NCBI RefSeq assembly: GCF_033344935.1
Contig: NZ_JAWPMM010000001.1
Coordinates: forward strand, 3,582,001-3,646,000
Reading direction: 5' to 3'
Length of the DNA stretch: 64,000 bases
Origin: Reichenbachiella sp.
GTDB taxonomy: Bacteria; Bacteroidota; Bacteroidia; Cytophagales; Cyclobacteriaceae
Positions 2,765 through 13,825 of this stretch are shown here, in pieces. A program made the translations under genes and the position numbers. A model generated the notes under the pieces. It was not told where the DNA came from. It did not search any database and saw only the letters and a program-made list of their open reading frames with translations. Within the stretch, counting starts at the first letter, position 1. Each line of letters begins with the position of its first letter.

Positions 2765-2801
2765 TACGTAGTTTACGTATATTTGTACGTAGTTATACGT
2801 A
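2765..2801. promoter_or_regulatory. Four TACGTA boxes and -7 element of the FNR-like gene
   Basis: TACGTA occurs at 2765-2770, 2774-2779, 2786-2791 and 2796-2801. The last two are separated by 4 nt (TACGTA-GTTA-TACGTA). A perfect Bacteroidota -7 element TATATTTG occupies 2778-2785, directly against this pair, so the pair covers the expected start site. The same arrangement precedes narK. The position suggests repression, perhaps autoregulation. Confidence 0.6.
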
Positions 2802-2811
2802 TTTAAAAGTT

Positions 2812-3519
2812 ATGGAAGGAGCAAATTGTATCACATGTCAAAACCTTGAATGTATTATTAAGAAAAATAGTCATGACAAGGATGTTGAACAGTATCTAAG
2901 TAAAAAACACACCATTCAATGCAAAAAAGGACAGCAGTTCATTTTGGAGGGTGCACCAGTTCACGGGCTTTACTTCATCAACAAGGGCAAGGCAAAAGTG
3001 GCCAAAACAGGCTTTCAAGGTAGAGAACAAATTGTTCGATTTGCCAAGGACGGAGAGATCATTGGACATCGTGGATTCGGTATAGGTGAATCATATCAAA
3101 TCAATGCTGTAGCCTTGGAGGATACGGTTCTTTGCAATTTTCCTAATGAATTGATGCAAGACATGCTAAAACATGCGCCAAATCTCACTTACGATTTCAT
3201 GCTGTTTTATGCCGATGAGCTGAACAGAAGTGAGACAAAAGTGAAAAAATTTGCTCAAATGACGGTACGAGAAAAAGTTATCGATGCCATTCTTTATATC
3301 CACCGCAAATTCGGACAGAGCAACGATTATTTAAACATTCAGCTTTCAAGAAAGGAAATAGCAGATTTTGCTGGCACTACAGATGAGCAAGTCATTCGCG
3401 TCATATCCGCATTGAAAAAAGAGAACCTATTACGTGCATCGGGTAAGAAGATTGGAATTGTAGACCTCGACTTACTCAAAAAAGAGATCTCTGAGCATAA
3501 TTTCTTCCTAGATAGTTAA
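2812..3519 (+). CDS. Crp/Fnr-family regulator with FNR-like cysteine set
   Basis: I place the start at ATG 2812 (MEGANC), giving 235 residues. The longer frame from 2737 would run through the promoter boxes. Domains: cyclic-nucleotide-type sensor barrel about 25-130, dimer helix, C-terminal winged helix (LSRKEIADFAGTTDEQVIRVIS). The N-terminus has C6-x2-C9-x4-C14, and a fourth cysteine C108 sits in DTVLCNFP. E. coli FNR has C20/C23/C29 and C122, a nearly identical spacing, so an oxygen-sensitive [4Fe-4S] cluster is plausible. In the recognition helix the FNR Glu and Arg are kept but the Ser is Ile. It sits next to narK and the nrt genes, so it probably controls nitrate uptake. Cluster binding and target sites are inference. 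Confidence 0.85.
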   Translation: MEGANCITCQNLECIIKKNSHDKDVEQYLSKKHTIQCKKGQQFILEGAPVHGLYFINKGKAKVAKTGFQGREQIVRFAKDGEIIGHRGFGIGESYQINAVALEDTVLCNFPNELMQDMLKHAPNLTYDFMLFYADELNRSETKVKKFAQMTVREKVIDAILYIHRKFGQSNDYLNIQLSRKEIADFAGTTDEQVIRVISALKKENLLRASGKKIGIVDLDLLKKEISEHNFFLDS

Positions 3520-3522
3520 TTA

Positions 3523-3544
3523 AAACCTGCGTTATCGCAGGTTT
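3523..3544. promoter_or_regulatory. CTGCG-TTAT-CGCAG dyad (operator and/or terminator)
   Basis: A perfect 9-bp inverted repeat AAACCTGCG / CGCAGGTTT with a TTAT loop begins just after the regulator stop. It could be the terminator of that gene, but no clean T-run follows. Its core CTGCG-N4-CGCAG recurs upstream of the nrt operon (7004-7017), where no gene ends nearby. I therefore favour a protein-binding site, about 63 bp before the presumed narK start. Confidence 0.5.
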
Positions 3545-3584
3545 ACATTTGTCTTTTACCATACTACGTGAAGTTTTTTCGCAC

Positions 3585-3608
3585 TTAATTTGTACGTATT
3601 ACTACGTA
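3585..3608 (+). promoter_or_regulatory. narK promoter -7 element with abutting TACGTA-N4-TACGTA operator
   Basis: TTAATTTG (3585-3592) matches the TAnnTTTG -7 consensus at all but one position. It is directly followed by TACGTA-TTAC-TACGTA (3593-3608), the same order and spacing as at the FNR-like gene. The dyad ends 13 nt before the narK ATG. An activator bound at -41.5 is impossible here, because transcription would start inside the gene. A repressor role is therefore more likely. Confidence 0.6.
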
Positions 3609-3621
3609 ATAATTTATTGCA

Positions 3622-5115
3622 ATGGAGTTTCAATCAGGACAAGCCAACAAAACATTATTTATTAACACACTTGCGTTTACCATCTGCTTCGGTGCCTGGA
3701 TGCTCAATGCTATCCTGGTTACCTTTTTGGTGGATAACCAACTATTCAATTGGACTGCAGTTGAAATGGGCTGGCTGATGGGAATTCCAGTATTGACAGG
3801 TGCAATTTTCAGGTTGCCTGCGGGCATTTTAACAGATAAATATGGTGGCAAACCTGTATTCACTGGCTTGCTACTAGTTTGCGCCATTCCGATGTGTTTA
3901 CTCTCCTATTCCAACAGTTTCTGGACTTATGCCCTATGTAGCTTAGGGTTTGGCTTGGCCGGCACTAGCTTTGCAATTGGTATTGCATTTAGTTCTGTCT
4001 GGTTTCCAAAAGAAAAACAAGGAACTGCTTTAGGTATATTCGGAGCCGGAAATGCAGGAGCAGCCATCACAACCCTTCTTGGGCCAAAAATTCTAGACTT
4101 TCTAACCGATGGAAAAACAAACCCGGTAGGCTGGAGACAAATGCCGTTGATTTATGCCGGCTGTTTGGTAGTAATGGCTATCATCTTCTTCCTTTCCACC
4201 ACAAACAAAAAACCTTCAGGAGAAGTACGCTCGATTCCTGTCCTACTGAATCCTCTTAAAAGTATCAGGGTATGGAGATTTGGGCTTTATTATTTCCTGG
4301 TTTTCGGCTGCTTTGTTGCATTTGCCGGATGGCTGGTTCCATATTATACCAACGTGTATGGTTTTGATTTAGCTACTGCTGGCCTTTTGGCTTCTTGCTT
4401 CAGTATTCCTTCAGGAGTTATTAGAGCTTTTGGCGGCTGGCTCTCGGATAAGTTCGGAGCCAGAGCGGTCATGTATAGAGTATTAGGAGGAAGTATGATT
4501 ATCTCAATGGCATTGCTTCTTCCTCGTATGGACATCTATTCAGCCGGCAAGGGTTTCTCTGCTCCTCAGAGCGGCACCATCACAGCCATTAGCTCAGATT
4601 TCATTACCATCAATGATCAACCCTACCCCATTGTTGCCAAAACTTTCAAACTAGAAAACACCGAAGATGAATTCCATTTTTGGCCCATCAAAGAAACCTG
4701 GCAATAGCCTGTGGTGTCTGTTGGTAACCAGGTCACTAAAAAGCAATTATTAGCAGAAGGCGTTACTCATATTTACTTTCAGGCCAACGCATGGATATTT
4801 TCTATTCTTGCCATTCTCTTGGGTTCTGTTTGGGGAATAGGCAAAGCAGCTGTATACAAACATATTCCGGACTATTTCCCAGACCAAGTGGGAGTTGTTG
4901 GCGGTATGGTTGGAGTACTTGGTGGATTAGGCGGTTTTGTATGCCCCATTATTTTTGGCTATCTATTGACAGAAACAGGTCTTTGGTCAAGCTGCTGGCT
5001 GCTCATGCTCGGGCTATCTGTAGTTTGTCTAGGCTGGATGCACAGCGTTGTGCAAAAGATGAGCGACGAAGCCTCTCCAAGCCTAAAAGAAAACTTCGAA
5101 GTAGTACAGAATTAA
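3622..5115 (+). pseudogene. narK: Nitrate/nitrite MFS transporter NarK, interrupted by one in-frame TAG
   Basis: One reading frame of 498 codons encodes a 12-helix NNP-family nitrate/nitrite transporter. Codon 362 (4705-4707) is TAG, and the same frame continues intact to 5115. Family marks: nitrate signatures GAGNAGAAITTLLGP (about 141-155) and GVVGGMVGVLGG in the last third, with substrate arginines R64 (TM2) and R268 (TM8). Between TM9 and TM10, about residues 302-385, lies an extra domain that holds the stop. After the stop comes PVVSVGNQVTKKQLLAEG, lipoyl-like in look. Family members commonly have Trp-Gln-Glu-Pro here, so GAG to TAG is the simplest explanation. Outcomes: inactive gene, sequencing error or readthrough. 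Without readthrough, helices 10-12 are lost. Confidence 0.85.
4705..4707 (+). other. In-frame amber codon within narK
   Basis: The codons read TGG-CAA-TAG-CCT-GTG. Both sides are in the same frame and both continue the transporter fold. The first base of an expected GAG glutamate codon appears to be T. No other lesion is visible in the gene, so the change is recent, an assembly error, or read through. Confidence 0.85.
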
Positions 5116-5134
5116 TCTTCAATTAGAATGAGGC

Positions 5135-5176
5135 ACAAGTTGTACCTAGATCCAACCTATTAGTACAAGTTATACC
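5135..5176. repeat. Pair of 12-bp direct repeats after narK
   Basis: ACAAGTTGTACC (5135-5146) and ACAAGTTATACC (5165-5176) differ at one base and lie 30 bp apart, about three helical turns. They sit in the 283-bp stretch between narK and the first porin gene. A regulatory role is possible but not supported by other copies. Confidence 0.3.
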
Positions 5177-5330
5177 GTACCTGAGCTATCTACCATCTAG
5201 ATCAAACTATATCATGGAAGACTTATTTTACTTTTCAAGATTCCTTAATTTTCATAAAGGAATAAGTAAAATCTGATCAATATTAATTTTTGAGCTGTCG
5301 GAAATCATATTCTACTCCAAAACTCTCTAC

Positions 5331-5338
5331 TAGGTTTG
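5331..5338 (+). promoter_or_regulatory. Candidate -7 element of the first porin gene
   Basis: TAGGTTTG is a perfect TAnnTTTG -7 element 60 nt before the porin ATG. The same octamer occurs before the second porin at 7085-7092. I see no good -33 TTG at standard spacing and no TACGTA dyad at this copy. Confidence 0.45.
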
Positions 5339-5398
5339 CTTCATTCCGATATCTGTAATTGAGATTCAAAGCCAAACAAAAACCAAACAAACTTTATC

Positions 5399-6676
5399 AT
5401 GAAACATCTACTCACTACCATTTGCATCCTTTGCATCTCCATTTCCTCCCATGCTCAGTTTTCCTTATCGGGCGAGGTCAACGCCAGATCAGAATTTAGA
5501 AATGGTTTCAAAAAACCAATAAGCGAAGGTCAAGACCCTGCATTTTTCACAGAACAGCGTACCAGACTAAATGCCGGTTACAAAACTGATGAATATGAAA
5601 TGCAAGTAGAATTGCAGGATGTTCGGATGTGGGGAGAGGATGGTATCGTGGACAAAGATTATAGTGGGTCCTTTGGTGTCTCCCAAGCTTGGGCACGATA
5701 CTATATGTCTAACAAAGTATCAGTAAAATTTGGTCGCCAAATGATCTCCTATGACAATCAAAGAATGTTCGGTGGATTAGAATGGGCCATGCAAGGTTTG
5801 AGACATGATGCGGCGCTTTTCATGTACGAAGACTCTTCCAAACTAAAAATACACGTGGGACTTGCCTACAATCAAAACCCTGAAACGGGTGCTGAACCTG
5901 TGAGGCTTACAGGCACCTACTATCCACCATTTACTGGCAATGGGGCTTATCACGCTACCGGCAACTACAAACATATGGAATTCGCCTACCTAAACAAGCA
6001 ATATGATGAAGGAAGCTTATCAGCTTATTTAGTTAACGATGGACGACAGTACGGATTGGAAGACTCGGTAGCCAATCGGCAAACCTATGGTTTGATGGGA
6101 ATGAAAAAACTGGGCAACACAAAGTTAAATGGAGAGGTATTCTATCAGGGAGGAAAATACGCGCTCAGCGATCTTAGTTCTTATATGTTTTCTCTTTCTA
6201 CTACTTTTAAAACTGCAGCCACGCCTCTCACCATTGGTTATGATCATTTATCTGGACAAGATCCTAACAGCAGCAAAGTCACAGCTTTTTCTCCACTGTT
6301 TGGCACTAATCACGCACTCTATGGATACATGGATTATTTTTATGTAGGTAATGGTCACAGTGACGTAGGCCTACAGGACATCTATCTTAAAACTAAATTT
6401 AAAATAGGGAAAGGCGCATTATCTGGACATGTACACTACTTTTTAGGAGCCAGCACGATTTATGAAGCCGACGGAGTAACTGAAGCTAGTGCCTCACTAG
6501 GAACAGAACTTGATTTGGTATATGTAAGAAAGCTAGGTAGTGCTGGCACATTTAAATTGGGCTATTCTCAAATGTTTGACACTGACTCCATGGATCTGAT
6601 CAAAAACACACCGAATTCAAAATCACTTAATAATTGGGCTTGGGTACAATTGATTTTCAAGCCTACGTTCTTGTAA
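5399..6676 (+). CDS. Outer-membrane porin, alginate-export-like family (copy 1)
   Basis: A 425-residue exported protein. The signal peptide is MKHLLTTICILCISISSHA before QFSLSGEVNAR. The body is a run of alternating polar/hydrophobic beta strands (FGRQMISYDNQR, YLNKQYDEGSLSAYLVND) and ends in a hydrophobic C-terminal strand with terminal FL, typical of a single beta-barrel. It resembles alginate-export-type porins. About four of five residues match the second copy at 7169. Its position between narK and nrtABCD suggests a channel for nitrate or another small anion, which is inference. It has its own promoter and a strong terminator at 6718. Confidence 0.8.
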   Translation: MKHLLTTICILCISISSHAQFSLSGEVNARSEFRNGFKKPISEGQDPAFFTEQRTRLNAGYKTDEYEMQVELQDVRMWGEDGIVDKDYSGSFGVSQAWARYYMSNKVSVKFGRQMISYDNQRMFGGLEWAMQGLRHDAALFMYEDSSKLKIHVGLAYNQNPETGAEPVRLTGTYYPPFTGNGAYHATGNYKHMEFAYLNKQYDEGSLSAYLVNDGRQYGLEDSVANRQTYGLMGMKKLGNTKLNGEVFYQGGKYALSDLSSYMFSLSTTFKTAATPLTIGYDHLSGQDPNSSKVTAFSPLFGTNHALYGYMDYFYVGNGHSDVGLQDIYLKTKFKIGKGALSGHVHYFLGASTIYEADGVTEASASLGTELDLVYVRKLGSAGTFKLGYSQMFDTDSMDLIKNTPNSKSLNNWAWVQLIFKPTFL

Positions 6677-6717
6677 GACTTCATCGGCTTCATGACGAGT
6701 CTCACATTTTTACATCC

Positions 6718-6759
6718 AATCCGCTCTTAATCATAAACACTTTAGGAGCGGATTTTTTT
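6718..6759 (+). terminator. Rho-independent terminator after porin copy 1
   Basis: A perfect 9-bp stem AATCCGCTC / GAGCGGATT (6718-6726 with 6746-6754) with a 19-nt loop runs into seven Ts. It separates porin copy 1 from the nrt operon. Confidence 0.8.
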
Positions 6760-7002
6760 ATGCTTTTCTATATCAAAATATCAAACAGCAATCTCTATTC
6801 CTTTCAATCATATATTGCCTTAGAAATTCAGTATTCTCATCTCACCATCTAAGTAATTTAAGAACCAACCAGTTTGCTCCTTCAACACATTCGGGGGTTT
6901 TCAATTACTCAGTTTTAATTAGAAAATCACCTTAAAACACCAATATGACTACTTAATTGACTCAATCAAACTACGTAGATACTAAAACCAACCTTCAACT
7001 TA

Positions 7003-7018
7003 TCTGCGTTTTCGCAGA
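7003..7018. promoter_or_regulatory. CTGCG-TTTT-CGCAG dyad upstream of nrt operon
   Basis: TCTGCG-TTTT-CGCAGA is a perfect inverted repeat in the 492-bp intergenic region before porin copy 2. It repeats the core of the 3523-3544 dyad. It lies about 85 bp before the start predicted from the -7 element at 7085. No terminator role is likely here. Confidence 0.5.
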
Positions 7019-7084
7019 AATAAAAGCCGAATAAAAAAGATTCCAAGGCTGTCATATACCATTTCATCACTCGCAAGGCCCAAC

Positions 7085-7117
7085 TAGGTTTGCCATACAA
7101 TTACGTAATAGTACGCA
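7085..7117 (+). promoter_or_regulatory. nrt operon promoter: -7 element and TACGTA-N4-TACGCA dyad
   Basis: TAGGTTTG (7085-7092) is a perfect -7 match. TACGTA-ATAG-TACGCA (7102-7117) follows 9 bp later and repeats the dyads upstream of the FNR-like gene and narK with identical 4-nt spacing and one changed base. A further single TACGTA lies at 6972-6977. The rest of 6760-7084 shows nothing else I can name. Confidence 0.6.
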
Positions 7118-7168: not shown

Positions 7169-8449
7169 ATGAAAAAACTAATACCGGCTTTGTTCGCCAT
7201 TATCCTAACCATCACCTCAGCACAAGCTCAATTTTCTTTGAGTGCGGAAGTTAATGCCAGATCTGAATTTAGAAATGGATTTAAAAAACCAATTACCGAT
7301 GGTCAGGATCCGGCCTTCTTCACAGAACAGAGAACGCGACTATACGCCAATTACAAGGCCGATGAATATGAAGTAAACATCGCACTACAAGACATTAGAA
7401 TGTGGGGAGCGGATGGAATCGTAGACAAAACTTACGGTGGTTCATTTGGTATCTCCGAAGCATGGGCCAGATACTATATGTCTGATAAATTCTCTGTGAA
7501 ATTTGGCCGTCAAATCATCTCCTATGACAATCAAAGAATGTTTGGTGGATTGGAATGGGCGATGCAAGGTCTAAGACATGATGCGGCACTATTCATGTAC
7601 GAAGATTCACTTGGATTGAAAATACATGCTGGCTTGGCTTACAACCAGAATCCAGCCACAGCAGGCGAACCTGTGAGATTAACAGGCACCTACTATCCTC
7701 CTTTTACAGGAAATGGCCCATATCATGCCACCGGCAACTACAAGCACATGCAATTTGCTTACCTAAACAAAAAGTATGAAAGCGGAAGTGTATCAGCCTA
7801 TTTAGTGAACGATGCCAGACAGTACGGGTTAGAAGATTCTGTAGCCAATAGACAAACCTACGGATTGATGGGTATGAAAAAAGTAGGCGGAGTTAAACTG
7901 AATGCTGAGTTTTTCTACCAGGGTGGAAAAGTAGCCCTGAGCGATTTGAGTGCCTATATGTTCTCTGTTTCAGCTACGTTAAAAACAAGCGCTACGCCAG
8001 TGATTATAGGATATGATAGATTATCCGGTCAGGATTCAGAATCTACCAAAAACACCACATTTGCACCATTATTCGGAACCAATCATGCCTTTTATGGTTT
8101 CATGGATTACTTCTATGTTGGCAACGGCAATAGCAACTCAGGATTGCAAGACATTTACCTAAAAACAAAATTCAAAATTGGTAAAGGAGCCATCCTGGGA
8201 CATATTCATCAATTCCTAACAGCAAGCACCATCTATGAAGCAGACGGCACAACTGAAGCCAGCGCTTCTTTGGGTACAGAGCTTGACTTGGTGTATGTGA
8301 CTCCTGTAGGAAAAATAGGAACCTTTAAAGTGGGCTACTCGCAAATGTTCGCTTCGGACAGCATGGACATCATCAAAAACACTACCAATTCTAAATCGCT
8401 CAACAACTGGGCTTGGGCACAGTTGATCATCAAACCAAAATTCTTGTAA
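7169..8449 (+). CDS. Outer-membrane porin, alginate-export-like family (copy 2)
   Basis: A 426-residue close paralogue of the 5399-6676 protein, matching over its whole length including signal peptide and C-terminal strand. The signal peptide is MKKLIPALFAIILTITSAQA before QFSLSAEVNAR. It is the first gene of the nrt operon, 32 nt before nrtA, and lies behind the shared TACGTA dyad, so it is the better candidate for the nitrate entry channel. Transported substrate is inferred from context only. Confidence 0.82.
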   Translation: MKKLIPALFAIILTITSAQAQFSLSAEVNARSEFRNGFKKPITDGQDPAFFTEQRTRLYANYKADEYEVNIALQDIRMWGADGIVDKTYGGSFGISEAWARYYMSDKFSVKFGRQIISYDNQRMFGGLEWAMQGLRHDAALFMYEDSLGLKIHAGLAYNQNPATAGEPVRLTGTYYPPFTGNGPYHATGNYKHMQFAYLNKKYESGSVSAYLVNDARQYGLEDSVANRQTYGLMGMKKVGGVKLNAEFFYQGGKVALSDLSAYMFSVSATLKTSATPVIIGYDRLSGQDSESTKNTTFAPLFGTNHAFYGFMDYFYVGNGNSNSGLQDIYLKTKFKIGKGAILGHIHQFLTASTIYEADGTTEASASLGTELDLVYVTPVGKIGTFKVGYSQMFASDSMDIIKNTTNSKSLNNWAWAQLIIKPKFL

Positions 8450-8481: not shown

Positions 8482-9888
8482 ATGAATAAATTAACCACAC
8501 TCATCACCCGAATAGTTGCTTTCTCGGTCCTCTTAGCTGGAATGGCTGCTTGTAGCAGCGGTACCTCAAAATCCACCGAAACCGAAGTGGCCATAGAGGC
8601 ACCAAGTAAGACCATACAATTGGAAATAGAAAAGCCACAGCTGACTTTTGGCTTCATCAAATTGACCGACATGGCTCCATTGGCTATAGCCAAAGAATTG
8701 GGTTTTTTCGAAGACGAAGGGCTCTACGTCACCATCGAAGCTCAATCCAACTGGAAGAATGTACTCGACCGAGTAATCGATGGTCAATTAGACGGCTCGC
8801 ACATGCTCGCTGGCCAGCCGATCGCAGCTGGTGCTGGATTCGGTAGACAAGCCAATTTAGTTACTCCTTTTTCCATGGATTTGAATGGAAATGGTATCAC
8901 CGTATCCAATGATGTTTGGTCTAAAATGAAAGAGAATATACCCATAGATGCTGAAGGCAAGCCGGTACACCCGATCAAAGCTGATGCCTTAAAGCCTGTA
9001 ATCACTGATTACAAAAACAATGGTAAAGCATTCAAAATGGGTATGGTATTTCCAGTCTCTACGCACAATTATGAAATCAGATATTGGTTAGCAGCCGCAG
9101 GGATTAATCCTGGCTTCTACACTTCAGACAATATCCAAGGGCAAGTAGATGCCGAAGTATTGTTATCCGTAACACCTCCACCACAAATGCCAGCAACATT
9201 GGAAGCAGGTACTATTTATGGTTACTGTGTAGGCGAACCATGGAACCAGCAAGCAGTATTTAAAGGTATAGGTGTGCCTGTCACTACCAACTACGACGTA
9301 TGGAAAAACAATCCTGAGAAGGTGTTTGTAATGACCAAAGAGTTTACTGAAAAGTACCCAAATACGGCAGTAGCAGTAACCAAAGCGTTGATCAGAGCAG
9401 GTAAGTGGCTCGACACGCCAGGTAACAGACCAAAGGCTGTAGGCATCTTATCTATGCCGGAATATGTGGGTGCAGATTCAGTAGTAATCGCCAACTCCAT
9501 GACAGGAACTTTCGAGTTCGAAAAAGGAGACAAGCGTTCTATGCCTGATTTCAACGTATTCTTTAGATACCACGCTACATATCCATTCTACTCAGACGGT
9601 ATCTGGTTCTTGACTCAGATGAGAAGATGGGGACAGATTCCTGAAGAAAAACCAGCCGAATGGTACGAGTCTACAATCAAAGACATTTACAGACCTGACA
9701 TCTGGAGCAAGGCTGCTGGATTATTAGCAGAAGAAGGCTACCTATCGGCAGATGAGATTCCTGAAACTGATGGTTTCAAACCAGCTACAGCTGAATTCAT
9801 CGATGGTATTACCTACGACGGCAAAGATCCAATCGGGTATATCAACAGCTTTGAAATAGGCAACAAGGACGAGAAAATTCTTCCTTAA
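8482..9888 (+). CDS. nrtA: ABC nitrate-type substrate-binding lipoprotein NrtA
   Basis: A 468-residue lipoprotein of the NrtA/CmpA family, binding nitrate (or a similar anion) in the periplasm and handing it to NrtB. The lipobox ends at C24 (GMAAC), followed by a Ser/Thr/Glu-rich linker. The binding fold begins with [23 protein letters not shown], typical for the family, and continues through [11 protein letters not shown] and a C-terminal TSWK-like region. Neighbours are porin copy 2 upstream and the permease downstream, with a large stem-loop in the 152-nt gap before nrtB. Nitrate rather than bicarbonate or cyanate is inferred from narK nearby. Confidence 0.88.
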
Positions 9889-9922
9889 ATCAAATGATTT
9901 TAAAAACTGAATTCTTATAAAC

Positions 9923-9993
9923 CTGTCACACTGAGGTTCTCGAAATGTCTGTCAGCTTCTGGCAGCGAGGCTTCGAGGACCTCAGCCTGACAG
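9923..9993 (+). repeat. Large imperfect stem-loop between nrtA and nrtB
   Basis: A 22-bp inverted repeat with 19 matches (9923-9944 and 9972-9993, arms starting CTGTCACACTGAGG and ending CCTCAGCCTGACAG) encloses a 27-nt loop. The loop holds a second hairpin CTGTCAG-CTT-CTGGCAG. It looks like a REP-type extragenic palindrome. An ATG in the loop opens a spurious extension of nrtB. A likely effect is mRNA stabilisation or partial termination, letting NrtA exceed the membrane subunits. Confidence 0.75.
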
Positions 9994-10040
9994 CCCTGTT
10001 TTTAAAATCACTTTTCACTAATCCAATAAAGAATACAATC

Positions 10041-11141
10041 ATGAAAGATAAAATCATCAAGGTCATTCGCTTTATCGGTCTCGGATTTCTCGAGCCATTA
10101 GTCAGACTATGTTATGGAGAAGAAACGCAAAAGAATGCCACCAACTTTGTCAAGCAAGCCTTGTTCCCGGTGTTTTCGATTCTTTTGTTTTTAGCCATCT
10201 GGCAATCTGGTGCCACACACCTCTACAACAAAGAAGCTGATAGAAAAATTGAAAAGGCACTAAAAGACCAAGGGGAAGAAGCCGCCGCTGATATGGAAGC
10301 CTGTATCGAGTCGGGTGACGTAAGTTGTCAACCAAATACTCTACCATCCCCTGCACAGGTCTGGGGAGCGTATCGCTCTCTGCTGGCGGATCACAAGATC
10401 ATTGCCTCAAAGAAGGATGAGTTTGCAGAGAAAACGGCCAAGACCAATGCCAAGCGAGCTGAAAAGGGCCTCGACCCAATCACATACACAGGACGTCCTT
10501 CATTTGTTGACCAAATACTAACCAGCCTAAAGACTGTCTTTGCTGGCTTTCTTTTGGCGGCGATAGTAGCCATTCCCATCGGAATCATTATTGGCTTAAG
10601 CCAAACTTTGAGAACGTCATTCAACTGGTTGATTCAAATTTTTAAGCCTGTTTCTCCCGTGGTTTGGTTACTACTAGTCTTTATGATCATCAAAACCTTG
10701 ATCACTGACCCAGACATGGACAAGTCGTTTATGATCTCCTTCATCAGTGTAGGGCTATGCGCCATGTGGGCCACATTAGTCAATACGAGTATGGGTGTTT
10801 CGTCTGTCGACAAAGACTTCATTAATGTATCGAAAGTATTAAGACTCTCGGTTGGGAAAAATATTTTCAAGGTTATTCTACCCGCTTCAATTCCACTGAT
10901 TTTTACGGGACTTAGAATCACACTATCAGTAGCATGGATGGTACTTATTGCCATTGAATTGTTGGCGCAAAGCCCGGGACTTGGCTCTTTCGTATGGGAG
11001 GAATTTCAGAATGGAGCTAACGACTCCAACGCCAAAATCATCGTGGCCATGTTCGTCATCGGCATCATCGGTTTTGCCTTGGATCGTATCATGCTTACCA
11101 TTCAGAAGTTCATGTCTTTCAATAAAGCCGAAATCGCTTAA
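10041..11141 (+). CDS. nrtB: ABC nitrate permease NrtB
   Basis: I start at ATG 10041 (MKDKIIKV), giving 366 residues; the longer frame from 9945 begins inside the stem-loop. The protein has one N-terminal membrane helix (about 39-58), a periplasmic insert of roughly 100 residues with two cysteines ([12 protein letters not shown]), then a five-helix permease core. The EAA loop that docks the ATPases is visible as [18 protein letters not shown]. The insert makes it longer than classical NrtB. It works with the two ATPases that follow at 12-nt and 11-nt gaps. Confidence 0.87.
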
Positions 11142-11152
11142 ACCCAATCACT

Positions 11153-12037
11153 ATGGCATTTTTAGAACTGAATCATGTGAGCAAGTCCTACGGGACTGGC
11201 AAAGAAAAAGTAGAAGTACTGGACGATATCAATCTTCATGTAGAAGAGGGAGAATTTGTAGCCATTGTAGGCTTTACTGGTAGCGGAAAAACCACCCTGA
11301 TCAACTTGATCAATGGCCTGCACTTCCCTGACGCTGGAGAAGTTCTTCTAAACGGCAAGCACATTGCAGGCCCTGGTCCTGATCGAGGCGTAGTATTCCA
11401 AAACTATTCCCTCCTCCCCTGGCTTAGCGTTCGTGGTAATGTAAAGCTGGCAATAGATCAAGCTTATCCCAACGCCTCAAGCAAGGAAAAAGACGAAAAG
11501 GCGGAAACGTATGTAGACATGGTGCATCTGAGCCATGCCATAGACAAAAAGCCTGCAGAACTGTCTGGTGGCATGCGCCAACGGGTTTCTGTGGCCAGAG
11601 CACTAGCTATGAATCCCGAAATGCTACTCATGGACGAGCCGCTCTCAGCACTCGATGCACTAACGAGAGGCAGTTTGCAGGAAGAAATCGTTAACATCTG
11701 GAGCAAAGACAAGAAGACTTGCTTACTGATTACCAACGACGTGGATGAGTGCATCATCATGGCGGATCGCATCATTCCGCTCAAACCTGGACCAAAGGCG
11801 ACCTTAGGACCAGAATTCAAGGTGGACTTCCCGAGACCACGCGTGATCACTGAGATCAACAAAGATCCTGAATACAAAAAGCTCCGAAACGAAGTGTTCG
11901 AATACTTGATTGAAGTAGGTGCTTCACGAAGCTCTTCAAGCGACGAGTCTTATGAACTCCCAGATTTACAACCAGTCATGCCTGGTCGCATACAGTGGAG
12001 AAAGAAAACAGAGAAAGAAAAAACTAAATTCTTTTAG
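11153..12037 (+). CDS. nrtC: ABC transporter ATPase NrtC-type, altered H-loop
   Basis: A 294-residue ABC ATPase. Walker [10 protein letters not shown] (40-48), Q-loop [11 protein letters not shown], signature LSGGMRQR (138-144), Walker [12 protein letters not shown] (D161/E162). The H-loop reads LLITNDVDE, so N195 replaces the switch histidine found in the partner (H217 in THDVDE). A tail of about 45 residues follows but no NrtA-like domain is fused, unlike cyanobacterial NrtC. It likely pairs with the next gene product to drive nitrate import. The Asn suggests one weakened ATP site; this is inference from the sequence. Confidence 0.87.
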
Positions 12038-12048
12038 AACCTATAGAT

Positions 12049-12879
12049 ATGGAAGTATTAGAAAAAAAAGAAATCATCAAATCGAGCTTGGGAGTACCCA
12101 TGCTTGACTCACGACCAGACCGATTGGTTTGCAAAGACTTAACGAAAATTTACCATACGCCGAATGGTGACTACACTGTACTATCCGAACTAGAACTTCA
12201 TGTGAAACAAGGCGAATTCATCTCCATCATTGGTCATTCTGGATGTGGAAAATCCACCCTCCTATCAATGATTGCAGGCCTCAATGACATCAGCGCAGGC
12301 AAAGTTCTGGTAGATGATGAGGTGGTGAGAGGTGCCGGGCCAGATCGTGCCGTGGTGTTTCAGTCCCCCAGTTTATTTCCTTGGCTCACGGCTTTGCAAA
12401 ATGTTTTGATTGGAGTGAAACAAGTATTTCCTCATGCCAGCAAGTCGCAAAAACTAGATATCTGTAAATACTATCTAAGCAAAGTTGGCTTGGGTAAGGA
12501 CATGAACAAACGGGCCAGCGAACTAAGCCAAGGCATGCAGCAGCGTGTAGGCATCGCTAGAGCCTTTGCACTGAAACCTAAAGTACTACTACTAGATGAG
12601 CCTTTTGGTATGTTGGACTCATTAACTCGGGGCGAACTACAAGACGTATTGCTCGAAGTGTGGCAGAAAGAAAAAATTACCGCCTTGATGGTGACTCATG
12701 ACGTAGATGAATCCATCTTCTTGGCCGACCGAGTGATCATGATGACCAGTGGTCCGTTTGCTAAAATCGGAGATGAACTGACTATCCCATTTGAGCGACC
12801 GAGAGATCGCGTGCATGTACTTGAGCATCCGGATTATTACGAATACAGAAGCTATTTAATGAATTTTTTAAACCATTGA
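12049..12879 (+). CDS. nrtD: ABC transporter ATPase NrtD-type
   Basis: A 276-residue ABC ATPase. Walker A GHSGCGKST (62-70), Q-loop VVFQSPSLFPWL, Walker B LLLDEPFGMLD, and an intact H-loop MVTHDVDE (H217). The signature is LSQGMQQR rather than LSGGQ. Together with the preceding ATPase, whose signature is canonical but whose H-loop is not, it would form an asymmetric heterodimer. The sensor gene follows after one base, so it is in the same operon. Confidence 0.87.
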   Translation: MEVLEKKEIIKSSLGVPMLDSRPDRLVCKDLTKIYHTPNGDYTVLSELELHVKQGEFISIIGHSGCGKSTLLSMIAGLNDISAGKVLVDDEVVRGAGPDRAVVFQSPSLFPWLTALQNVLIGVKQVFPHASKSQKLDICKYYLSKVGLGKDMNKRASELSQGMQQRVGIARAFALKPKVLLLDEPFGMLDSLTRGELQDVLLEVWQKEKITALMVTHDVDESIFLADRVIMMTSGPFAKIGDELTIPFERPRDRVHVLEHPDYYEYRSYLMNFLNH

Positions 12880-12880
12880 T

Positions 12881-13825
12881 ATGAAAAAATTAACGATTCA
12901 GTACCTCATGTTTTTAGGTGTTTTGACCCTGGCCATTGTGGCCAGTCAAATTCTCATCCAACGCACCATTTCCGATAGCCGAACGGATTCCCGAATTATC
13001 AACATCTCAGGTAGACAGCGGATGCTCAGCCAAAAGATCACAAAGTCTGCGTTAAAACTGCCATTGAGTAAAAGTAAGGAGGAGTTTAACCGGACTAAAT
13101 CGGAATTGACCGATGCCGCCAGACTATGGACAGACTCTCATCAAGCACTTAAGTATGGAAACGAACGTCTGGATGTAAGCAAAATGAATGAGTCAGTGTT
13201 TCTTGCGCGGTTGTTTACCCAGATTCAACCGTATTTTCAGTCTATCACCGAGGCGGTTATTGAGTTGGATCAATTCAACTATGATCAGTTAGAAGCGGAT
13301 GCTATTCCTCCTCAAATGGAAGAAGCCATTCAGGCGATCTCCGATCATGAGAAGGATTTTCTAAAGCTCATGAATGACATCACCTTTGAGTACGACAGAA
13401 TAGCCTCCGAAAAGGTAGAAAAGCTATCCACTTCGGAATACTATCTACTAGCTGGCACTTTGCTGCTGATACTGCTTGAAGCATTTTTTATTTTCCGACC
13501 AATGGTAAAAACGTCGAAGCGAAAGGACCATGTGATTTCAGAGTTCAATGATTATGTACAGCAAAGCATTTCTGCATTGGGACAAACCCATCAGGAAAAA
13601 GAACTGGCGGACAACATCATTGCTGAAGCTAACGAAAAGATTGACGCACTGTCTACGGTAAACAACAACTTGCGCAAGCGAATCAAGCAAACTAAAAATG
13701 AATACGAAAAGAAACTCAGCGAAGAGATCATCAACTACACAGAAATCAGCGAACTGAACACTACTTATGAAAACAAAATTGCTATGCTCGAAAAAGAACT
13801 AAAGCGCATGAAGAAAACTGTCTGA
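12881..13825 (+). CDS. Membrane sensor with NarX/PilJ-type input domain, no output domain
   Basis: A 314-residue protein with two membrane helices (about 7-27 and 186-206) around a periplasmic helical domain. Just after TM1 it carries RIINISGRQRMLSQKITK, which matches the P-box style motif of nitrate sensors NarX/NarQ and PilJ-type domains. After TM2 there is only a short segment and a long charged coiled coil to the C-terminus, with no kinase, cyclase or chemotaxis signalling domain. As last gene of the nrt operon it probably senses nitrate and acts through a partner or on the transporter. The function is inference; the domain layout is seen. Confidence 0.75.
   Translation: MKKLTIQYLMFLGVLTLAIVASQILIQRTISDSRTDSRIINISGRQRMLSQKITKSALKLPLSKSKEEFNRTKSELTDAARLWTDSHQALKYGNERLDVSKMNESVFLARLFTQIQPYFQSITEAVIELDQFNYDQLEADAIPPQMEEAIQAISDHEKDFLKLMNDITFEYDRIASEKVEKLSTSEYYLLAGTLLLILLEAFFIFRPMVKTSKRKDHVISEFNDYVQQSISALGQTHQEKELADNIIAEANEKIDALSTVNNNLRKRIKQTKNEYEKKLSEEIINYTEISELNTTYENKIAMLEKELKRMKKTV

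Follow-up and report, generated by a model that had tools for sequence, protein, structure and literature searches.

Two-component systems whose response regulators (RRs) belong to the NarL/FixJ family are the closest described parallels to the site analyzed here, a TACGTA-N4-TACGTA dyad found at nitrate-uptake promoters in a 64,000-nucleotide stretch of a Reichenbachiella sp. genome (assembly GCF_033344935.1, contig NZ_JAWPMM010000001.1, positions 3,582,001 to 3,646,000), hereafter the window. The published FixJ site, selected in vitro (SELEX), is GTAMGTAG, which contains TACGTA or TAAGTA (PMC4999443); NarL favours 7-2-7 sites (the cited example spans 16 bp), repressing frdA from -4/+6 and activating napF from -40/-49 (PMC4549865), with TACYYMT as its heptamer (PMC4886647). 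On the sensor side, G-x-x-R is described as the nitrate motif of the PilJ-type domain, and Bacteroidetes kinases have been reported together with genes labelled narHK and narRR (PMC8199190). The dyad of the window shares features with each of these systems and marks a nitrate assimilation regulon; we estimate a probability of roughly 0.74 that it is read by an RR of this family encoded outside the window and not by the FNR-like protein encoded beside it.

Results

The dyad marks nitrate assimilation genes

A sequence-only reading of the window had placed three dyads with a 4-nt spacer over or near the start sites of nitrate-uptake promoters, and a pattern scan bears this out: the copies at the FNR-like gene and at narK are exact (0 mismatches each), and the third, TACGTAATAGTACGCA at the porin-nrt operon, has a single change (Table 1). 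The -7 consensus is TAnnTTTG, and the -7 elements also lie as claimed, the first two dyads beginning on the base after a TAnnTTTG-like box and the third 9 nt later. Additional TACGTA hexamers, absent from the earlier list, are found at 2765 and 2774 (3-nt spacer) and at 6972. When up to two mismatches are allowed, 5 of 100 shuffles of the window give at least three matches, so this looser test is weak; the unusual feature is the exact sites rather than loose matches. Two exact dyads lie within 0.82 kb in the window, against 0 exact matches to a reversed control pattern in the whole source genome (11 over 39 whole genomes).

Scanning the entire source genome (4,878,078 bp, single contig) gave five exact dyads, all at nitrogen genes or the FNR-like gene: the genes downstream of them are the FNR-like gene, narK, nirB, nas and amt. 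Among four one-mismatch sites, two belong to transport genes of the same pathway (porin-nrt and a second NarK) and two fall inside unrelated genes. These gene names are of unequal standing, nirB and amt passing NCBIfam cut-offs while narK, the nrt permease, the second NarK and nas are best matches below them; nas and nirB were scanned as partial frames. Across the nine genomes whose FNR-like orthologue is at least 70% identical, 28 of 29 exact dyads are upstream of nitrogen-assimilation genes or the FNR-like gene, and the control pattern has 2 matches. The 30 relatives lacking the orthologue contain 18 exact dyads (9 control matches), four of them at nitrate genes (G019, G022) and six in a single genome, G018, beside no recognised nitrogen gene; several of the remaining eight look like chance.

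The scan was extended to 22 named orthologue loci, four of which repeat genomes already counted; among the genera represented are Reichenbachiella, Marinoscillum, Flammeovirga, Echinicola, Wenyingzhuangia and Ochrovirga. The 47 sites found there with at most one mismatch all lie upstream of pathway genes (narK, porin, nirB, nrtA, nas, second narK, kinase) or of the FNR-like gene, the furthest at 281 nt; three loci (L081, L088, L098) have no such site. Reichenbachiella, Marinoscillum, Flammeovirga, Echinicola and Wenyingzhuangia all carry the code. These counts support the suggestion, already made from the window, that the dyad is the code of a nitrate regulon in Bacteroidota, here one for nitrate assimilation, and they show its conservation in related genomes. 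Our searches of open-access papers listed no account of such a DNA code.

Two groups of dyads stand beside other genes. In the g43 genomes (family f19), an exact dyad also occurs by a 2-oxoglutarate dehydrogenase E1-like (sucA-like) gene (L187, L192, L195, L196) and by an sdhC-like gene (L188, L189, L191, L194), the names being judged by eye; these dyads may perhaps tie nitrogen uptake to the tricarboxylic acid cycle. Four of the six G018 dyads (L048, L059-L062) read TACGTATAAATACGTA, no neighbour was recognised as a nitrate gene, and the genome yielded no nirB and no close FNR-like orthologue.

TACGTA follows the recognition helix of a response regulator

In the source genome nirB heads an operon, nirB-nirD-kinase-RR, followed by nas and located outside the window, with the RR at G000:C1:1017361-1018038. 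Given this gene order, two candidate readers, the RR and the FNR-like protein, were compared over 60 genomes with nirB. This sample is not random: 31 genomes come from a phylum draw (31 of 392 matched, all kept) and the rest entered through kinship or the FNR-like orthologue; classes for the RR, FNR-like and TACGTA tallies were assigned by hand, and ten nirB counts were entered by hand. TACGTA is found within 220 nt upstream of nirB in 45/45 genomes whose RR carries the helix E[TV]HRFN and in 0/14 without it (Fisher 7.5e-14, a statistic that ignores relatedness). Three of the 14 have a nirB-linked RR with another helix (DNHRAN or ANQRAS), and in the other 11 the best RR match reaches only 133-221 bits. 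The genomes of the phylum draw alone divide in the same way (20/20 vs 0/11, n=31, hand count). G432 stands outside the 45 vs 14 count, and G436, which has the RR but no nirB match, is in no count.

The RR combines a receiver with a LuxR-type DNA-binding domain, as NarL/FixJ proteins do (Response_reg 8.3e-29, GerE 2.2e-19), and is similar to VraR (5.8e-36) and NarL (4.9e-30). Its helix RTVEVHRFNLMKKL aligns with the FixJ helix RTVEVHRANVMAKM (1X3U), and TACGTA agrees with the TAMGTA core of the FixJ site; relatives show TAAGTA and TACTTA variants, and the flanking G is not fixed. The 16 bp of the dyad also agree with an inverted 7-2-7 arrangement of half-sites. A tree of the RRs places the HRFN-type proteins in one group (28 rows, G432 included; 93/87, not a starred branch), two HRLN paralogues are their nearest neighbours, and the nirB-linked RRs of G028, G034 and G284 form their own clade further out (96/85). 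The RR gene often stands in the order nirB-nirD-kinase-RR but is not always beside nirB: in G059 and G369 a genome search located it elsewhere, in Wenyingzhuangia it is encoded away from the FNR-like gene, and in Flammeovirga it lies beside nas.

The sequence-only reading had tentatively named the FNR-like protein as reader, which would then regulate its own gene, and several features speak for this. Written as ACGTA-N4-TACGT, the site has the 5-4-5 spacing of FNR sites with G at position 3, and the recognition helix TT[DE]EQVIR keeps the E and R by which FNR contacts its DNA. A site (at most one mismatch) stands upstream of the FNR-like gene itself in 18/22 named loci, and over the 60 genomes TACGTA occurs at nirB in 39/40 with an FNR-like orthologue vs 7/20 without. 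The regulator does not accompany the dyad everywhere, however, and the genomes in which the two candidates part favour the RR: among the 20 without an FNR-like orthologue, TACGTA is at nirB in 7/7 with the RR and in 0/13 without it. Five of these seven (G019, G022, G210, G218, G426) carry exact dyads at nirB, nas, narK, nrtA or porin, and two (G214, G229) carry hexamers or one-mismatch sites instead. In the converse case, G442, an FNR-like orthologue is present, a search for an RR of this family found none, and nirB lacks TACGTA; its RR could be missing from the assembly, since this is a 2.5-Mb metagenome-assembled genome. Moreover, L098 and L088 retain the FNR-like helix TTEEQVIR, yet no dyad is present in those loci, and to our knowledge arrays of helically spaced single hexamers, as found here, are not usual among Crp/Fnr sites. 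We therefore reject the FNR-like protein as the leading candidate and regard it as an improbable reader.

It is likewise improbable that another regulator, co-inherited with the nirB-linked two-component system, reads the code. Support for the RR is indeed a correlation with a gene cluster, but TACGTA tracks the residues of the RR helix: in G028, G034 and G284 the nirB-linked RR carries a different helix, and nirB lacks TACGTA. In addition FixJ, with a similar helix, has a TAMGTA-containing site.

Four loci (L210, L212, L213, L226) contain nirB clusters in which a more distant FNR-like gene (32-38% identity) takes the place of the RR and nirB lacks TACGTA; this gene is a possible alternative regulator of the same pathway.

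Hexamers are phased on the -7 box

To describe the promoters, 265 upstream stretches were taken from RR genomes, dropping those below 100 nt and repeated 80-nt ends; some lie inside genes (the nirB-like domain of nas; the kinase upstream within nirD), and orthologues are non-independent. They contain 388 TACGTA, vs approximately 21 in shuffles (an approximate block shuffle). Start-to-start distances between TACGTA peak at 10, 21-22, 31-32 and 41-44 nt, with 59 pairs at 10 nt, and hexamers (including TAAGTA and TACTTA) start mainly at -11, -21, -32, -42 and +9 from the last G of TAnnTTTG. Collapsed to lineage and gene, the 197 offsets, which are still non-independent, have a period of about 10.2-10.5 (Rayleigh 6e-16 at 10.5 with offsets -7 to 0 omitted; 9e-10 without the -11 peak). 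Helical phasing is evident in the arrangement of the hexamers.

Two placements of the whole dyad can be distinguished. It starts 42-44 nt before the last G of TAnnTTTG at nas (Reichenbachiella, Wenyingzhuangia), the FNR-like gene (Wenyingzhuangia, g43 genomes) and the second narK (Marinoscillum), which centres it near -40 on the assumption that transcription starts 4-5 nt past that G. In Reichenbachiella other than R. versicolor, it directly follows the -7 box at the FNR-like gene and narK in the promoters examined. The repressor-type position claimed from the window holds at these two genes, where the dyad abuts the box, but is not general: the dyad is near -40 at nas and, in other lineages, at the FNR-like gene itself. 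The first placement suggests activation, the second repression.

The dyad is also 10-13 nt ahead of two start codons, and for this reason an RNA hairpin in the leader was considered. It lies near the ATG of the FNR-like, narK and nirB genes of Reichenbachiella, but at nas and in other lineages it precedes the -7 box, where no transcript would include it, and pairing is weakened in variants (TAAGTA-N4-TACGTA, the changed 7102 site); a hairpin is hardly credible.

The FNR-like protein and the sensor

The FNR-like protein has cNMP-like and Crp helix-turn-helix domains and four cysteines of FNR type, with an NCBIfam Fnr score of 77.6, under the cut-off of 228. Cys 6, 9 and 108 align with the cysteines through which FNR binds its oxygen-labile Fe-S cluster, by which dimerisation of FNR is controlled; Cys 14 is one residue off (CX2CX4C here vs CX2CX5C in FNR). 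Its own site was not found, given that inverted repeats of FNR, CRP and TTGC type are nearly absent from the 265 stretches (TTGAT-N4-ATCAA 0, TGTGA-N6-TCACA 0, TTGA-N6-TCAA 1, TTGC-N6-GCAA 2). CTGC-N6-GCAG, with 18 copies upstream of narK, porin and nrtA, was rejected as operator: by eye, most resemble A-tract/stem/T-tract terminators of the preceding gene. By analogy, the FNR-like gene is probably a target of the dyad, placed below the RR as fixK is below FixJ.

In four relatives (G006, G014, G019, G022) Pfam finds PilJ, HisKA_3 and HATPase domains in the kinase, with PAS; the PilJ-type domain joined to HisKA_3/HATPase has the G-x-x-R motif in the first three, and in G022 the motif pattern is unmatched. 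For five kinases Pfam lists neither HAMP nor GAF. A kinase without PilJ, such as that at L078:4984-6357, is encoded in seven Reichenbachiella genomes (G000-G005, G007); the absence is seen by Pfam for G000 and by alignment and the missing motif for the other six. The same seven encode a stand-alone PilJ protein with G-x-x-R in the nrt cluster, the window copy being at 12881-13825. R. versicolor has the joined PilJ-kinase and no separate PilJ copy in the stretch examined, and Marinoscillum furvescens has both forms.

Features of the window

Table 1. Sites and genes of the window, with positions counted from its first letter
Feature	Position	Strand	Remark
Two further TACGTA hexamers, 3-nt spacer, upstream of -7 box	2765..2779	.	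Final TA of second hexamer is TA of -7 box
-7 box TATATTTG, promoter of FNR-like gene	2778..2785	+	Sequence; consensus TAnnTTTG
Exact dyad abutting -7 box of FNR-like gene	2786..2801	.	Site with at most one mismatch upstream of orthologous gene in 18/22 named loci
FNR-like Crp/Fnr regulator, 235 aa	2812..3519	+	Cys 6, 9, 14, 108 invariant in 9/9 aligned orthologues; predicted dyad target
-7-like box TTAATTTG of narK	3585..3592	+	Sequence; second base T, not A
Exact dyad abutting narK -7 box	3593..3608	.	Pattern scan
narK-type MFS nitrate/nitrite transporter	3622..4707	+	Best match, under curated cut-off
-7 box TAGGTTTG, porin-nrt promoter	7085..7092	+	Sequence
Dyad with one changed base, starting 9 nt past -7 box of porin-nrt	7102..7117	.	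Pattern scan
Outer-membrane porin (Alginate_exp-like), first gene of nrt operon	7169..8449	+	Domain match
Nitrate-type ABC transporter	8482..12879	+	Binding protein 8482-9888; permease 10041-11141; ATPases 11153-12037, 12049-12879
Stand-alone PilJ-domain protein, nitrate motif G-x-x-R (SGRQRML)	12881..13825	+	Candidate sensor half absent from kinase G000:C1:1015983-1017356

The best match of the ABC permease is ntrB, under the curated cut-off. The narK frame is stopped after 361 codons by an in-frame TAG (4705-4707) and the same frame reopens at 4711-5115, while the orthologue in G002 is one 497-aa frame; the TAG reflects either a pseudogene or a sequencing error. The porin has a tandem neighbour (5399-6676 and 7169-8449, 79% alike), and the dyad is at the second only.

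Discussion

We propose that the NarL/FixJ-family RR binds the dyad, its kinase partner having a PilJ nitrate-sensing domain in relatives. Nitrate would be sensed and phosphorylated RR dimers would occupy TACGTA pairs one helical turn apart; a dyad near -40, as at nas or at the FNR-like gene of Wenyingzhuangia and the g43 genomes, would activate transcription, and one over the start site (the FNR-like gene, narK and porin-nrt in Reichenbachiella) would repress or fine-tune it. The RR would then control the FNR-like protein as a regulator of the second tier, much as FixJ controls FixK. More tentatively, helically spaced FixJ-like TACGTA arrays in Bacteroidota could tile the core promoter, share bases with the -7 box and run nitrate assimilation by way of a cascade from the two-component system to the FNR-like protein, with the sensor split in most Reichenbachiella, where the PilJ half encoded at 12881-13825 might signal to the PilJ-less kinase.

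A number of observations weigh against the RR and the arrangement proposed for it: (i), TACGTA departs from the NarL heptamer TACYYMT, having G as fourth base; (ii), in G432 (helix ETQRFN) nirB and a narK still have one TACGTA each, but the FNR-like gene, porin and nrtA have none; (iii), the single exact dyad among the 29 that is beside an unrelated gene is the sole exact dyad of R. versicolor, which has both the RR and the FNR-like gene and whose nirB retains single hexamers only; (iv), the helix classes were defined after the data were seen, and some RRs of TACGTA-less genomes differ only slightly (ETHRQN, ETHRLN, EVHRHN); (v), the kinase is likewise present in the seven RR genomes that lack an FNR-like orthologue, as expected if another factor inherited with the cluster were the reader; (vi), part of the 10.2-10.5 period is the dyad's own 10-nt spacing; and (vii), TACGTAnnTTTG fails as a general promoter type, with 3 matches in the source genome vs 11 control matches.

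What is gained is a motif with a name, a candidate reader whose recognition helix can be tested and a list of targets over at least two orders, together with a simple grammar in which promoters differ by where the motif stands relative to the -7 box. Because some nirB-linked RRs have the HRFN helix and others do not, they constitute a natural specificity experiment, and the split sensor bears directly on how the signal passes in nitrate kinases without HAMP and GAF.

Among Crp-family proteins, NtcA belongs to the nitrate/ammonium assimilation regulon of cyanobacteria, with GTA-N8-TAC as its site; unlike NtcA, the Crp/Fnr protein of Reichenbachiella appears to be a target. The FixLJ-FixK cascade (Rhizobiales; PMC4999443) is alike in several respects: its RR is of the NarL/FixJ family with a similar recognition helix, TA[AC]GTA is within its site (GTAMGTAG or TAAGTAATTTCCCTTA), and sites lie upstream of a Crp/Fnr-family gene. 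FixL, however, is a haem-based oxygen sensor and the genes under FixJ are fixK and nifA (PMC4999443), whereas the Bacteroidota kinase has PilJ (nitrate-type) and PAS domains in relatives, and the dyad marks genes of nitrate assimilation. NarXL/NarQP of E. coli (PMC4549865, PMC4886647) is alike in its PilJ-type sensor, with G-x-x-R in our relatives, in an RR similar to NarL, in the 16-bp 7-2-7 geometry and in the placement of its sites, near -44 for activation and at the start for repression (PMC4549865). It differs in its site, TACYYMT (PMC4886647) where we find TACGTA, and in serving respiration, not assimilation; helically spaced arrays, and kinases with no HAMP or GAF in five Pfam tables, set the Bacteroidota system further apart. 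The Bacteroidetes narHK-narRR pair, with a PilJ and PAS kinase without HAMP or GAF, is probably the same two-component family (PMC8199190, accessible part); that part gives no DNA site, regulon or FNR-like target, and the words 'promoter' and 'nirB' are absent from its main text. Compared with narHK-narRR, the seven Reichenbachiella genomes are distinguished by a PilJ half that is a separate protein.

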